A DNA stretch of 64,000 nucleotides from Methanofervidicoccus sp. A16 (lineage in GTDB: Archaea > AGJL01 > Methanococci > Methanococcales > Methanococcaceae): the NCBI RefSeq assembly GCF_003351865.1, contig NZ_CP022242.1, forward strand, positions 682,001 to 746,000. Direction: 5' to 3'. Position numbers and translations under genes: made by a program. The notes under the pieces were generated by a model that was given only the letters and a program-made list of their open reading frames with translations, was not told where the DNA came from and did no database searches. Within the stretch, counting starts at the first letter, position 1. Each line of letters begins with the position of its first letter. Positions 27,092 to 63,094 of this stretch are shown in pieces.

Positions 27092-27712
27092 ACCCTAGTT
27101 CCCCCATTAAAGGATAGTTTTAAAGAATAATAAAAATAAAAAATAAAGAAAATATTTAAAAAACAGAAAACCTCTATCACCCCAGATACAAAAATTTTAA
27201 AAAGAAGATTGAAGGAGAACGATCCTCTGTATATCTTTTAAATATAGTGGGTACCAGAATAGGATTTTCTATCTTACCTAAGTGTTCAGAAAGATCCTAG
27301 AATGTTTAATAGTTTTTATATTGAACCCTATTCCCATCAAAAAAAAATTCTGATAAGAATAGCAATAATTATAAAAAATAAAACAATAACAACTATAAAA
27401 ATAAAAGTACAAAAAGAAGTATTAAAATCAAAATAAGAGATAATCTTTCTAGGACGCTCTAAGATACCAAATGGAATTGGAGTAGATCCTTCCTCACAGG
27501 TTGCTATTATATATTATATTGTATAATATTTTATTATAAGGTATCATATTTCAATATTTTTCCAGTCTTTTTTTATTATTCTTATTTTTATTATTCAAAT
27601 CATTACTTTGATGGGAATTAAGGTTTTTATATTGATTATTTTCATTATGATTTTTATTATAATGATTATCTTTTTATTATTCTTTAATTACTATTTGGTG
27701 GGAAACTAAGGT
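27092..27712 (-). mobile_element. Inverted-end element (type 1), interrupted by a second element
   Basis: Ends are ACCCTAGTTCCCCCATTAAA on the left and TTTGGTGGGAAACTAAGGT on the right, which are inverted copies of each other. Reverse-complemented, its core matches elements at 34559, 50419, 59735 and 62620 (for example AGGATC-TTTCTGAACACTTAGG and TATTCTGGTA). A different element (27325-27623) splits it. Without the insertion it would be about 310 bases. No ORF of note lies inside, so it would need a transposase in trans. Confidence 0.65.
27325..27623 (+). mobile_element. Inverted-end element (type 2) nested in the type 1 element
   Basis: It begins ACCCTATTCCCATCAAA and ends TTTGATGGGAATTAAGG, an inverted pair. 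The 12 bases TTTTTATATTGA stand on both sides (27313-27324 and 27624-27635), as a target-site duplication would. The host element's sequence resumes after the right copy, in line with other copies. Internal sequence ending in CACAGGTTGCTATTAT matches the element at 29689. Non-coding. Confidence 0.65.
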
Positions 27713-28731: not shown

Positions 28732-28808
28732 TGGTGCCGTGGGGGTGATTTGAACACCCGACAACTGGATCTTCAGTCCAGCGTTCTCCCAGGCTGAACT
28801 ACCACGGC
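28732..28808 (-). tRNA. tRNA-Phe (GAA)
   Basis: On this strand GCCGTGG pairs with CCACGGC in the acceptor stem; the anticodon stem-loop CTGGACTGAAGATCCAG gives anticodon GAA; the T arm holds GTTCAAATC. CCA is encoded. It is transcribed away from the tRNA-Asn gene, from the shared promoter region at 28852-28884. The genome's Taw3 acts on this tRNA. Confidence 0.97.
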
Positions 28809-28851
28809 TTCCCACGGCTCTATTACACACACCTACTAATATACACAACTG

Positions 28852-28884
28852 ATATATATACTTTTCGCCGAAAAGTTTATATAG
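28852..28884. promoter_or_regulatory. Symmetric divergent promoter for tRNA-Phe and the tRNA cluster
   Basis: A 17-base palindrome ACTTTTCGCCGAAAAGT (28860-28876) is flanked by TATATATA on the left and TTTATATA on the right. Each arm reads CGAAAAGT followed by a TATA box, the form of a strong archaeal BRE-TATA promoter, one in each direction. Start sites would fall near 28830 leftward and 28905 rightward, just ahead of the two tRNA genes. Confidence 0.75.
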
Positions 28885-28928
28885 GAGAAAGTAAATTTTT
28901 ATTGTGCAAACAACATGTAATGTTAAGA

Positions 28929-29004
28929 GCCCCCATAGCTCAGTAGGTAGAGCGACGGACTGTTAATCCGTAGGTCGCAGGTTCGAGTCCTGCTGGGGGC
29001 GCCA
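28929..29004 (+). tRNA. tRNA-Asn (GTT)
   Basis: Acceptor stem GCCCCCA pairs with TGGGGGC; anticodon arm CGGACTGTTAATCCG gives GTT; T arm GCAGGTTCGAGTCCTGC. CCA is encoded. First gene of the rightward tRNA cluster. Confidence 0.97.
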
Positions 29005-29034
29005 AATAACTAGTTTTTATCTTTTTTGTATTGA

Positions 29035-29112
29035 GGGACCGTAGCTCAGCCTGGTCAGAGCACTCGGCTCATAACCGAGGGGTCAAGGGTTCAAATCCCT
29101 TCGGTCCCACCA
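29035..29112 (+). tRNA. tRNA with anticodon CAT (Met, elongator-like; Ile2 not excluded)
   Basis: Acceptor GGGACCG pairs with CGGTCCC; anticodon arm CTCGGCTCATAACCGAG gives CAT; T arm AAGGGTTCAAATCCCTT. CCA is encoded. It lacks the A1 start of archaeal initiators, so it is an elongator Met tRNA or the Ile2 tRNA whose C34 is modified to agmatidine; sequence alone does not decide. Confidence 0.92.
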
Positions 29113-29116
29113 TGGA

Positions 29117-29191
29117 GCCCCAGTGGTGTAGCCCGGCCTATCATGCGGGCCTTTCGAGCCTGCGACTCGGGTTCAAATCCCGACTGGGGCA
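29117..29191 (+). tRNA. tRNA-Glu (TTC)
   Basis: Acceptor GCCCCAG pairs with CTGGGGC; anticodon arm CGGGCCTTTCGAGCCTG gives TTC; T arm CGGGTTCAAATCCCG. Unlike its neighbours it has no encoded CCA: the discriminator A is followed by TATTTT. It starts only four bases after the preceding tRNA's CCA, so the two share one transcript. Confidence 0.95.
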
Positions 29192-29221
29192 TATTTTTTT
29201 TATAAATTATTATTTTATACA

Positions 29222-29309
29222 GCAGGGGTTGTCGAGCCTGGCCAAAGACGCAGGACTTAGAATCCTGTCCCATAGGGGTTCGGGGGTTCAAATCCCCCCC
29301 CCTGCACCA
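29222..29309 (+). tRNA. tRNA-Leu (TAG)
   Basis: Acceptor GCAGGGG pairs with CCCCTGC; anticodon arm CAGGACTTAGAATCCTG gives TAG; a long variable arm (about CCCATAGGGGTT) marks a class II tRNA; T arm GGGGGTTCAAATCCCCC. CCA is encoded. Confidence 0.95.
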
Positions 29310-29329
29310 TTTTTTTTATAGGTATATGT

Positions 29330-29405
29330 GGCCGGGGTGGGGTAGTGGCTATCCTGGGGGACTGTGGATCCCCTGAGCCGGGTTCAATTCCCGGTCCCGG
29401 CCCCA
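29330..29405 (+). tRNA. tRNA-His (GTG)
   Basis: A genomically encoded G-1 precedes the acceptor GCCGGGG, which pairs with TCCCGGC, and faces discriminator C73, as tRNA-His requires. Anticodon arm GGGGACTGTGGATCCCC gives GTG. CCA is encoded. Last in the cluster; a T-run (ATTTTTTTTT) follows and probably ends the transcript. Confidence 0.96.
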
Positions 29406-29688
29406 TTTTTTTTTGGAATGTACTCACTTTTTAGATGGATTTTAATATCTTAGAGATCCCTATTTTTATTATTTCAAGATTTATCTAGGTTCTCTTGGAG
29501 ATGTTGAAATCTCATTATTGTAGTTTGAGGTTCAATCAATTAAGATTTATTTATTTTTTAATTTTTTATAATAATTATTTTTATTATATTGATTAGTTTT
29601 GAATATTCAAATGTTTCGAAAAATAATATATCTGCCATTGTTTGTGGAATACCATTGAATACTGATAAAACAGAAAGAATTTCACTAA

Positions 29689-30003
29689 ACCCCAATTCCC
29701 ATCAAAAAATTCTGATAAGAACAATAATTATAATAAAAAAGTTAATTATAATAAAAGTATAAAAGGGAAGGTATAAAATCAAAATAAAAGATAATCTCTT
29801 GGGATACTCCAACATACTATGGAAGTGGAGTAGATCCTCCCTAACAGGTTGCTATTATTAACTTTATTATTTTTTTTATTATCTAAATCTTATTATGATG
29901 GGAATGAAGGTTTATTTTATTATTATTCCTCTTAAGATTTTTATTATTTTTTTATTATGATAATTATTATTCTTCTAATTACAATCTTGATGGGAACTAG
30001 GGT
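29689..30003 (-). mobile_element. Inverted-end element with a 9-base flanking repeat
   Basis: Left end ACCCCAATTCCCATCA and right end TGATGGGAACTAGGGT are inverted copies. TTTCACTAA occurs directly outside on both sides (29680-29688 and 30003-30011, sharing the edge base), as expected of a target-site duplication. An internal copy of the end (TGATGGGAATGAAGGT near 29898) shows a composite make-up: its left two thirds match the type 2 element at 27325, its right third matches the starts of 62411 and 34358. It abuts the 3' end of the DUF447 gene. Confidence 0.65.
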
Positions 30004-30030
30004 TTCACTAACTCTTTTTCTTAAAGAAGT

Positions 30031-30606
30031 CTAATCAATACCCTTAAGTAACTTCTCCCCCAGTTGAATATACCTCCCATCTCCAACCTTTTTAATGATC
30101 TTAAAGTACTCCTCCATCCTCCTAACCATCTCCTCTCTTTTTTCCCCATCAACAATATTTAGCCGGGAGTAGAGTACAGCCATCTCAACAATGAGCCCAT
30201 CTGCCCTAGAGTAAGGTATTACAGGCGGATTGTTTATACCTCTCTCCAAGAGAATCTCCCCCTGGATCGCCATCAGTTTTGAATCTCCATACTCGTCCCT
30301 AATATCTACAAACCTCCTTTTAACAACCTTTACAACGTATATTTTATAGGCATCGGAGAGGTAGGGAAGACTAATACCCTTATACTTCACAGTACTATAA
30401 TCTCCCTCATCGTCGTATACAGACTGGGCTATAAGATAGGGAGAGGTAATATTCACTACAAAGTAATCCTCAATCCCCAGTATATGGTAGGTATGGGATC
30501 CCTCATATAGATGAAATCTAATTTCCCTATCCTTAAAATATACTCCTATAGGGGCCCTATTGTATCTCCCATCTAAGGCGCAGGTGATCACTACCTCGTA
30601 TCTCAT
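30031..30606 (-). CDS. DUF447 family protein (FMN-binding split-barrel type)
   Basis: A 191-residue protein of the archaeal DUF447 family, predicted to have a flavin-binding split-barrel fold. The N-terminal RYEVVITCALDGRYNRAPIGVYF, NRAPIG in particular, and the ITSPYLIAQS segment are typical. Function is not established. The start is taken as ATG 30606, one base after the stop of the radical SAM gene (TAGTATG), so the two are translationally linked; an earlier in-frame codon at 30666 would overlap that gene. Family assignment from recall. Confidence 0.7.
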   Translation of the reverse strand: MRYEVVITCALDGRYNRAPIGVYFKDREIRFHLYEGSHTYHILGIEDYFVVNITSPYLIAQSVYDDEGDYSTVKYKGISLPYLSDAYKIYVVKVVKRRFVDIRDEYGDSKLMAIQGEILLERGINNPPVIPYSRADGLIVEMAVLYSRLNIVDGEKREEMVRRMEEYFKIIKKVGDGRYIQLGEKLLKGID

Positions 30607-30607
30607 A

Positions 30608-31579
30608 CTATCCCCGATAATATACACCTTGTCTAGTACCTCTCCTTTTAAACTCCTTAATAGCATCGTTGAGTATAGATAATCTACTTAAATTCCACTC
30701 TGGAGATACCTTTATCTCCTCAGGTACCTTGTCCTTCGAAACCCTCTGTATAAGTACGTAGGGAGAAGTATGCTCCAAGAAATCACAGAGAATTTTTATA
30801 TACTGTTTTCTATCTAAAGCTCTATACTCCCCCTTCCAGTACATCTCCTCCAACTTTGTACCTTTAACTACGACTAAGGGATATATCTTAAGGGCATCTA
30901 TCCCCAACTTCGAGAGGGATTCTGCAGTATCTATCATCTCCTCCCAGGTTTCATCTGGTAGCCCAAGTATAACATGCCCACATACGAGAATACCTCTCCT
31001 TTTACACTCTAATATAGCCCCTATAATATGGGATACTCCATGCTTCCTATTTATAAGATCCAAGGTTTTCTGATGGAAACTTTGAATACCTAAGTCTATC
31101 CAGATTTCGTATCCCTTCTTTACATAGTTCTCCAAAATATCTAAAATTTCCCTACTTAGACAGTCTGGCCTGGTACCTATGGAGAGCCCCACTACATCTG
31201 AATAGGATAGGGCGAAATCCCATAATTCCTTTAATCTTTCAGGATCTCCGTAGGTGTTTGTCCCAGGGTAGAAGTAGATGTAGAACTTATCTACTCCCTT
31301 CTTTTTCTGATTTTCCATCTGTTTTTCTATTTGATATTTTAGAGAGTACTTACTATTACAGTACTTTACACCTATGGGCCTGCCCATCTTTGGACAGAAT
31401 ATACAACCTTCAGTATCTAACGTACCATCCTTATTTGGACATATTGACCCACAGTCAACAGGTATTTTAAATACTTTGTAAGGTTTTGCCCTCTTCATAT
31501 ATAAGCCGTACTGGGCTATAGGGTGCCCTTCTTTGTATATAGAATCTATAATGTCTTTGTTGATACCTAGGCTATACAT
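30608..31579 (-). CDS. Radical SAM protein, TIGR01212 (YhcC-like) family
   Basis: A 323-residue radical SAM enzyme. The cluster-binding cysteines lie in an unusual long spacing, with C47, C59 and C62 in CPNKDGTLDTEGCIFC, as in the TIGR01212 group rather than the common CxxxCxxC. IYFYPGTNTYGD, IGTRPDC and CGHVILGLPDET follow in the expected order of the barrel. Proteins of the related YhcC group are poorly characterised; a role in modifying RNA or protein is a guess. GTGAT precedes the ATG. Coupled to the DUF447 gene. Confidence 0.85.
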   Translation of the reverse strand: MYSLGINKDIIDSIYKEGHPIAQYGLYMKRAKPYKVFKIPVDCGSICPNKDGTLDTEGCIFCPKMGRPIGVKYCNSKYSLKYQIEKQMENQKKKGVDKFYIYFYPGTNTYGDPERLKELWDFALSYSDVVGLSIGTRPDCLSREILDILENYVKKGYEIWIDLGIQSFHQKTLDLINRKHGVSHIIGAILECKRRGILVCGHVILGLPDETWEEMIDTAESLSKLGIDALKIYPLVVVKGTKLEEMYWKGEYRALDRKQYIKILCDFLEHTSPYVLIQRVSKDKVPEEIKVSPEWNLSRLSILNDAIKEFKRRGTRQGVYYRG

Positions 31580-34558: not shown

Positions 34559-34888
34559 ACCTTAGTTCCCATCAGTAGTGATTAAAGAATAATAAAAAGA
34601 TAATTATTATAATAAAAATCATAATTAAAATAACTAGTATAAAATCTATATATAAAAACTATTAAATACCCTTAGGATCTTTCCGAATCTTTAGATAATA
34701 TTATGAGATCTTATTCTGAATTCCTGTATTAGAAGATATTCAGAGGATCATTCTTCTTCAATCTTCTTTTTAAAATGCTGTATCTGATGATGATAGGAGT
34801 TTTCTGTTTTTTAAACATTTCTTTATTTTTTATTTTTATAATTATTTTTTACTATTTTTTAAACTATTCTTATGATGGGAACTAGAGT
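34559..34888 (+). mobile_element. Inverted-end element (type 1)
   Basis: Begins ACCTTAGTTCCCATCA and ends TGATGGGAACTAGAGT, nearly perfect inverted ends, about 330 bases apart. The core (GGATCTTTCCGAATCTTTAG, TTATTCTGAATTCCTG, TTCTTCTTCAATCTTC) recurs at 50419, 59735, 62620 and, inverted, 27092. No coding capacity. No clear flanking duplication. Confidence 0.65.
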
Positions 34889-62244: not shown

Positions 62245-62540
62245 ATAAAATTAAGTAATTAAAAAAGATTTTGAAAACAAAAACTTCTATAACAGATATA
62301 TAAAATTTTAAAAGTATAAACAGATATACCTCGATATATCTACTTCTGAATGTTAAAGGAAGGATGATCCTCTGGAATATCGTTTCATTTTCACTGATTA
62401 TTTTATATTAACCCTAGTTCCTATCAAGATTGTGATTAAAAAATAATAAAAATGATTATCATAAAAAAAATAATAAAAATCTTAAGAGGAATAATAATAA
62501 AATTAATAAAATTCTGATAGATGTAAAAAATAAAATAACC

Positions 62541-62583
62541 CTTTCTTCCTATATGGGATACTGGATAAACAAGTAAGATTTCT
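62541..62583 (+). repeat. Short dispersed repeat copy
   Basis: TTCTTCCTATATGGGATACT then ACTGGATAAACAAGTAAGAT, close to the copy at 35005. Here it lies inside the interrupted 62411 element. Confidence 0.45.
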
Positions 62584-62619
62584 TTTTAATTTTTTAGATA
62601 TTATTATTTTATTTTTATA

Positions 62620-62913
62620 ACCTTAGTTCCCATCAAAGTGATAATTAAAAGAATAATAAAAAGATAATTATTATATTTAAAAATCATAATGAAAATAATT
62701 AATATAAAAACCATATAAATATCCTTAGGATCTTTCTGAACACTTAGGTAAGATAGGAGATCTTATTCTGGTATCCACTATATTAAAAGGTATTTAGAGG
62801 ATCATTCCCCTCCAATCTTCTTTTTAAAATGTTATATCTGAGATATTTTTCTTTATTATTTTTATAATTATTTTTATTATTCTTAAAACTACCCTTTTGA
62901 TAGGAAGTAGGGT
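62620..62913 (+). mobile_element. Inverted-end element (type 1), nested in 62411-62974
   Basis: Begins ACCTTAGTTCCCATCAAAGT and ends TTTTGATAGGAAGTAGGGT, with the type 1 core (AGGATCTTTCTGAACACTTA; TTATTCTGGTATCCACTAT). TTTTTAT occurs at both edges (62612-62618 and 62913-62919), a weak sign of target duplication. Confidence 0.6.
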
Positions 62914-63094
62914 TTTTATTAATAAATAATTATTATTTTTATTTTCTTTTAATTACAAGTGATGGGGACTAAGGTTTTAATAATAAGAATATAATTTTTT
63001 TTTAAGAAATAATATAAAAATCAAAGAATGATAAAAATGATTCTTATTTTTAAGAGTTAAATCATATCCTATATAAATTAACAGGTGAATAAAA

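Follow-up and report, generated by a model that had tools for sequence, protein, structure and literature searches.

The window analysed here is a stretch of 64,000 bases, corresponding to bases 682001-746000 of one 1,504,113-base contig (genome G000). At positions 29689-30003, flanked by six clustered tRNA genes (28735-29402) and a minus-strand gene (30031-30666), it contains a gene-less element of 315 bp that has inverted ends and is bordered by a direct repeat. The question raised by this locus is whether the pieces of the element merely lie side by side or were moved together, and by what means. The initial annotation had described it as a type 2 body joined to a piece from another subtype, with a leftover end between them, and had suggested that such pieces recombine and move as a unit. 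It had also called the neighbour a DUF447 gene, and a profile search agreed, with 30031-30666 matching both PF04289 and PF20766. The analyses described below make it very probable that the element is a composite of two fused MITEs of an IS982-type family, devoid of genes and moved as a unit by a transposase acting in trans, whose copies later exchanged pieces. The features concerned are, in window coordinates:

27092-27712, no strand assigned: older type-1 element interrupted by 27324-27624; once joined, its flanks align through the junction with uninterrupted copies
27324-27624, plus strand: type-2 element without a tail, inside the older type-1 element (alignment; joined-flank test)
29681-29688, no strand assigned: left copy of the 8-bp target duplication TTCACTAA; position 29680 adds a ninth matching base
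29689-29705, plus strand: left terminal inverted repeat ACCCCAATTCCCATCAA (109 loose-motif sites; end alignment; family consensus ACCCTARTTCCCATCAA)
29689-29911, plus strand: type-2 MITE body (alignment with 27324-27624), with a less AT-rich core near 29790-29857
29896-29911, minus strand: leftover inner end (reverse complement ACCTTCATTCCCATCA), sharing no 8-9 bp repeat with the left flank
29912-30003, minus strand: tail, a terminal piece of another subtype, as 62411-62510 reversed (85 of 89 aligned columns)
29987-30003, minus strand: right terminal inverted repeat (reverse complement ACCCTAGTTCCCATCAA; G000:C1:711987-712003)
30004-30011, no strand assigned: right copy of the 8-bp target duplication TTCACTAA (duplication test)
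62411-62510, plus strand: piece whose end and subterminal sequence are those of the composite tail (alignment)

The two-part architecture was borne out by alignment. The body (29689-29911) and the type-2 element 27324-27624 are identical in 180 of 208 aligned columns, with a score of 158 compared to a maximum of 18 in 200 shuffles, while the tail (29912-30003) aligns with the reverse complement of 62411-62510 with a score of 131 (shuffle maximum 40, 200 shuffles). Both alignments proposed in the initial annotation (with 27325-27623 and with the reverse complement of 62411-62510) therefore hold, far above shuffled sequence. The internal end that it had placed near 29898 was located at 29896-29911, where it resembles the right end of the type-2 form.

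The outer ends are inverted, as had been claimed. The first and last 22 bases of the element are identical in 17 of 20 aligned columns, and the score of this alignment (18) is only just above the best of 200 shuffles (maximum 17, mean 3.5), so that the inverted ends of this single copy are thin evidence alone; it is the family that carries the case, and the consensus of 109 sites agrees with them. No ORF of at least 80 aa overlaps 29689-30003. There is no transposase gene between its ends, and the element is thus not an autonomous IS982 insertion sequence. It is short, lacks a transposase gene, has terminal inverted repeats and belongs to a multi-copy set with target-site duplications, all of which are properties of a MITE.

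A 332-base query gave at least 119 matches in the 1.504-Mb genome, at least 23 of them spanning 300 bases or more (the query copy included); these counts are lower bounds, since 40 of 306 first-look candidates were scored. The motif RTTCCCATCA occurs at 242 sites in the genome, compared to 5 for the reversed control, and the exact end ACCYTANTTCCCATCA at 173 sites in 1.5 Mb, compared to none for its reversed control. For the comparison of elements, 38 stretches around matches were fetched. The consensus ACCCTARTTCCCATCAA was derived from 109 sites of a loose end motif in these stretches and the window, some of which are plainly not family ends (e.g., the site at 30143, inside the DUF447 gene). 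None of the 31 elements checked, with 700 bases on each side, lies within a spanning open frame of at least 70 codons.

The distribution of the family outside G000 is patchy. The 17-base end ACCYTARTTCCCATCAA was found in 3 of 21 genomes, with 130 sites in G000, 8 in G001 (same genus) and 1 in G019 (same order), and a 16-base end motif in 9 of 36 genomes of the order. On viral contigs, 33 stretches with one end were found, none of which carries a facing pair.

The direct repeat had originally been reported as an exact nine-base repeat outside the element. The repeat does abut the element on both sides, but strictly it is 8 bp long (TTCACTAA): with the ends set at ACCC, the element (right end GGGT) runs up to and includes base 30003, and so the ninth base lies inside the right end. 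Within the window, the nine-base word TTTCACTAA occurs only at 29680-29688 and 30003-30011. Two occurrences alone are unremarkable, as two or more were present in 33 of 100 shuffled windows (mean 1.26); the unusual feature is that both of them abut one element.

Duplications were counted in 30 elements from the fetched stretches and the window, a sample rather than a full census, with both ends set at ACCC. L021 and L028, each with one end lacking the motif, were excluded, and L052 was placed among the simple elements. An exact abutting repeat of 8-9 bp was found in 16 of the 30 elements, whereas 2000 trials with randomly re-paired flanks gave an average of 0.64 and never more than 6. Such repeats were present at the outer ends of 11 of the 21 composites and in 5 of the 9 non-composite elements. 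Among the other ten composites, one has a repeat of 7 bp, one a repeat of 11 bp, and eight have none. An earlier, looser scan of 60 end pairs gave words of at least 9 bases in 21 pairs, compared to 1.4 expected. In none of the 21 composites does an 8-9 bp repeat pair the left flank with the sequence following the inner end. The outer ends are the ones that transposed, and from the contrast between 11 outer and 0 inner repeats it follows that the composite transposes as a unit, in support of the original suggestion. In the case of L025, the 9-base duplication ATAATATTT recurs in the right flank (element 508-816), after ATTTAGGGT, apparently a remnant of an element end that was present earlier at this site.

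The same 9 bases (TTATTTTAT) follow the inner end in 17 of the 21 composites, with a longer linker in the other 4. This common sequence suggests that the junction was probably made once or twice and then spread by copying. The composite forms a family of about two dozen copies, and the copy at 29689-30003 therefore records no local event.

These counts also bear on the possibility that two independent neighbours, a type-2 MITE and a fragment of another MITE, merely touch at this locus and that the flanking repeat is there by chance. Such an arrangement would account for an inner end that is a normal type-2 end, and tail-less type-2 elements do exist, some with duplications of their own (10 bp for 27324-27624, 9 bp for L041). 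However, chance contact would not place the same junction at other sites in 17 of 21 copies, nor would it put the duplication around the whole unit (11/21) and never around the type-2 part alone (0/21), and we consider it extremely improbable.

Besides moving as a unit, the composites have exchanged pieces. A different left end is joined to a similar body in 4 of the 21 (L019, L026, L027 and L030). L036 combines a body 98% like that of L033 with a tail 97% like that of L030, although its body is only 61% like that of L030; L035 has a body 97% like that of L033 and a tail 95% like that of L025. A 9-bp duplication is present at L035, while L036 has none. Trees of body and tail were compared for 19 copies, after exclusion of 10 of the 29 aligned rows (five simple elements, L049, L054, L050, L021 and L034). 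The tail tree was rejected on the body data (AU 2e-55) and the body tree on the tail data (AU 8e-4); the alignment is gapped and AT-rich, and the exact p-values should not be taken at face value, but the mosaics can be seen directly in the aligned sequences. Since the two trees reject each other, the copies have also exchanged pieces, and together with the junction common to 17 of 21 and the different left end of four copies this supports the proposal that pieces recombine. L023 and L024 are 98% alike in both body and tail, and movement of such near-identical copies may have been fairly recent.

The direction of the change from short to long form could also be the reverse, with the three-ended form ancestral and the short type-2 form derived from it by use of the inner end, the tail being lost rather than gained. 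Such an older state could be represented by the four copies in which a longer linker follows the inner end. Against this, the tail sequence is found without a type-2 body at 62411-62510, and L049 and L054 have a similar right end on other bodies; these observations are in keeping with a tail derived from another subtype. Moreover, among the matches listed, those in G001 (64% complete) cover the type-2 body, e.g., query 8-226, and none of at least 300 bases was found outside G000. Loss of the tail is therefore regarded as rather unlikely, and acquisition of the tail by a type-2 MITE as the preferred reading. L054 (509-1005) and L049 (510-887) are composites of other kinds, in which a type-2 left part is fused to a type-1 element or a fragment of one and the whole is flanked by an 8-bp duplication.

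Insertion of the type-2 form was observed at the tail-less element in the window. This element (27324-27624) is flanked by the 10-base duplication TTTTATATTG at 27314-27323 and 27625-27634, and lies within a type-1 element (27092-27712) whose left end is mutated. In an empty-site test, the insert and one repeat were removed, and the joined flanks were aligned to the genome. This gave 22 alignments at 17 distinct places. The alignment runs without a gap through the repeat at L042 (84% over 292 bases), L038, L044, L083/L084 and, in the window, at about 60035 and 62897; at several other places, gaps of about 10 bases fall near the junction, reflecting differences among the type-1 copies in that region. 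The uninterrupted type-1 copies demonstrate the insertion directly. A second nested case with an in-genome empty site is L045, where a type-2 element with the AT-only repeat AATAAAAATAA lies inside an e-end element.

Empty sites were also sought for the composites. The DUF447 gene is present in 17 of 21 genomes, G000 included. In the two closest by DUF447 identity, G001 and G004, the element is absent and the downstream neighbour of DUF447 is a different one; no clean empty site for 29689-30003 was found in these two genomes, because the relatives have other neighbours there. As judged by eye, an apparent homoserine dehydrogenase gene lies downstream of DUF447 in G001 and G004 (L112, L118), where G000 has the tRNA cluster. 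For L024, no empty site was found in G001 and G004, where the flanks are on different contigs, or in G011, where they are about 100 kb apart; in G009, the right flank only is among the matches listed. The syntenic place of L019 was found without the composite in G001 and G004, and the intervening 334 and 192 bases are other, diverged sequence, with a similar-looking end in the G004 interval. Within G000, 24 of 27 elements (21 composites and 6 others) gave no empty-site match. The remaining three were L024 (2 matches), L036 (23) and L049 (15), of which only the best match of each was inspected. Those of L024 and L036 were rejected, as they fall in the element's own locus, and L049 has a plausible empty site at 76%. 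A convincing in-genome empty site was found for none of the 21 composites.

It could further be proposed that the repeats have been retained because they serve the host, for example as a structured RNA or a chromosomal binding site, the ends being secondary. The core near 29790-29857 is conserved between copies, and the plus strand, taken as RNA, folds better than 100 shuffles (z -2.92), although the inverted ends alone could give such a value. Exact target duplications, nested insertions and a patchy spread (9/36 genomes) are nevertheless what transposition leaves behind, and at gathering score the Rfam matches in the window are the six tRNAs and nothing else. A host role of this kind thus appears very unlikely.

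On the match of its ends to IS982-type terminal repeats in related Methanococcales, the element is a member of an IS982-type MITE family. The single site of the 17-base end in G019 starts an element in which part of an IS982 transposase was recognised (NF033520, E 2.7e-21; 76 bits against a cut-off of 130). Matches to NF033520 were found in 7 of 21 genomes, including G000, none of them above the cut-off. Scanning of 26 NF033520 loci for ends revealed a facing pair around the match at six distinct places. Five of these have at most one mismatch in each end, namely L087 and L106 (G006), L088 and L094 (G014), and L105 (G007); the MITE ends are accordingly the same as those of IS982-like elements whose transposase matches all stay below the NF033520 cut-off. 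One of the two G006 loci looks complete and the other is short. The facing ends of L107 (G007) have 1 and 2 mismatches, and those of L093 (G019) 0 and 4. No facing pair of such ends was found at the IS982-like loci of G009 and G011 (5 places), and other IS982-like loci are interrupted by contig ends or bear one end. Abutting repeats, scored by eye at the six facing pairs, measure 8 bp at L088 (TAATTATC) and 7 bp at L087 and L094; L105, L106 and L107 have none.

Many MITEs have only their ends in common with the parent element. When 60-base subterminal windows of six MITE ends were compared with those of nine IS982 ends, none of the 54 comparisons reached p ≤0.02, the windows being short and AT-rich. 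With no similarity found in these windows beyond the 17-base ends, internal deletion of a particular IS982 is a possible rather than an established origin of the family. BLAST also reported similarity between the MITE ends and IS982 elements, but a shuffle control indicated that base composition was responsible, and it was discounted.

Searches of G000 with NF033520, PF01609 and a transposase piece from G014 found no intact IS982 transposase. NF033520 gave one remnant of 66 positions with a stop, PF01609 gave no match at E 0.01, and the G014 piece gave the same remnant and two weaker matches. The transposase remnant, with stops, lies at about 217993-218335 of G000:C1 (217993-218364 for L092 1353-1724), beside an end with three mismatches to the consensus. 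Possible explanations are that the transposase was lost, that it has diverged too far to be recognised, or that it comes from another replicon.

We infer the following order of events, in which an IS982 transposase is the predicted motor: (i) a type-2 MITE would have become the neighbour of another MITE's right end, either through nested insertion combined with a deletion or through recombination among copies, (ii) the transposase would have bypassed the inner end and brought together the left type-2 end and the right end of the other element, (iii) the fused unit would have multiplied to about two dozen copies, and (iv) recombination or gene conversion between copies would later have swapped tails and left ends. 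Mobilisation in trans would be the work of an IS982-type DDE transposase, the intact resident gene for which would no longer be detectable by the searches described above.

A broader reading, which we offer as a tentative possibility, is that of a self-remodelling orphan MITE family, in which about a hundred copies swap ends and bodies, three-ended composites recur and the winning end pairs multiply, served by a transposase from outside the chromosome (from a plasmid, a virus or a past invader). The outside source is suggested by the presence of copies that are 98% alike in a complete genome in which the searches revealed no intact IS982 transposase.

The kind of element is already known, i.e., the IS982-derived MITE. 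MITECca01 of Cardinium, an IS982-derived MITE of about 240 bp with 169 copies, resembles the present family in being gene-less, with IS982-like ends, a very high copy number and a mostly intergenic location, also inside other mobile elements (PMC9769881). It differs in that its parent, ISCca4, is still present in the host genome (68 copies, 7 of them intact), whereas only a remnant was found in G000; in addition, its host is bacterial rather than archaeal, and the sections of that paper that were covered describe no three-ended composite (PMC9769881). IS982 elements are described as being about 1 kb in length, with ends starting with AC and direct repeats of 2-10 bp; archaeal members are ISPfu3 and ISTli1, both with 2-bp repeats, and there are matches in Methanotorris formicicus and a Methanocaldococcus (PMC7335449). 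The present family shares with the archaeal members ends that begin with AC, short inverted repeats and direct repeats of variable length, but 29689-30003 has no transposase gene, and its family has repeats of 8-9 bp in place of the 2 bp of ISPfu3 and ISTli1 (PMC7335449). The ends of the present family match those around the IS982-like genes of G006, G007 and G014 and, less closely, of G019. The MITEs of Sulfolobus and other archaea are likewise small non-autonomous elements moved in trans, but they have other hosts, and the term IS982 is absent from the main text of the review that describes them (PMC10969869). No archaeal IS982-type MITE family with a three-ended subfamily was found among the matches listed in the open-licence literature, and the archaeal member with a composite subfamily appears to be new.

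IS982-type MITEs are hereby extended to Methanococcales. A fused MITE can skip its inner end and spread as a unit while its copies swap pieces, and this is seen here in many copies within one small archaeal genome, apparently that of a thermophilic methanogen. The filled and empty sites, common junctions and end variants provide clean material with which to study how DDE transposases select among rival ends. The element at 29689-30003 is itself a clear but fairly ordinary case of mobile DNA remodelling itself.

The family accounts for several related AT-rich repeats in the window. Additional copies or ends, which belong to other subtypes of this repeat family, are located at 34559-34888, 60066 and 62411-62975. 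On the other side of the locus, a minus-strand gene of the NifH/frxC family (PF00142; 27835-28848) adjoins the tRNA cluster.
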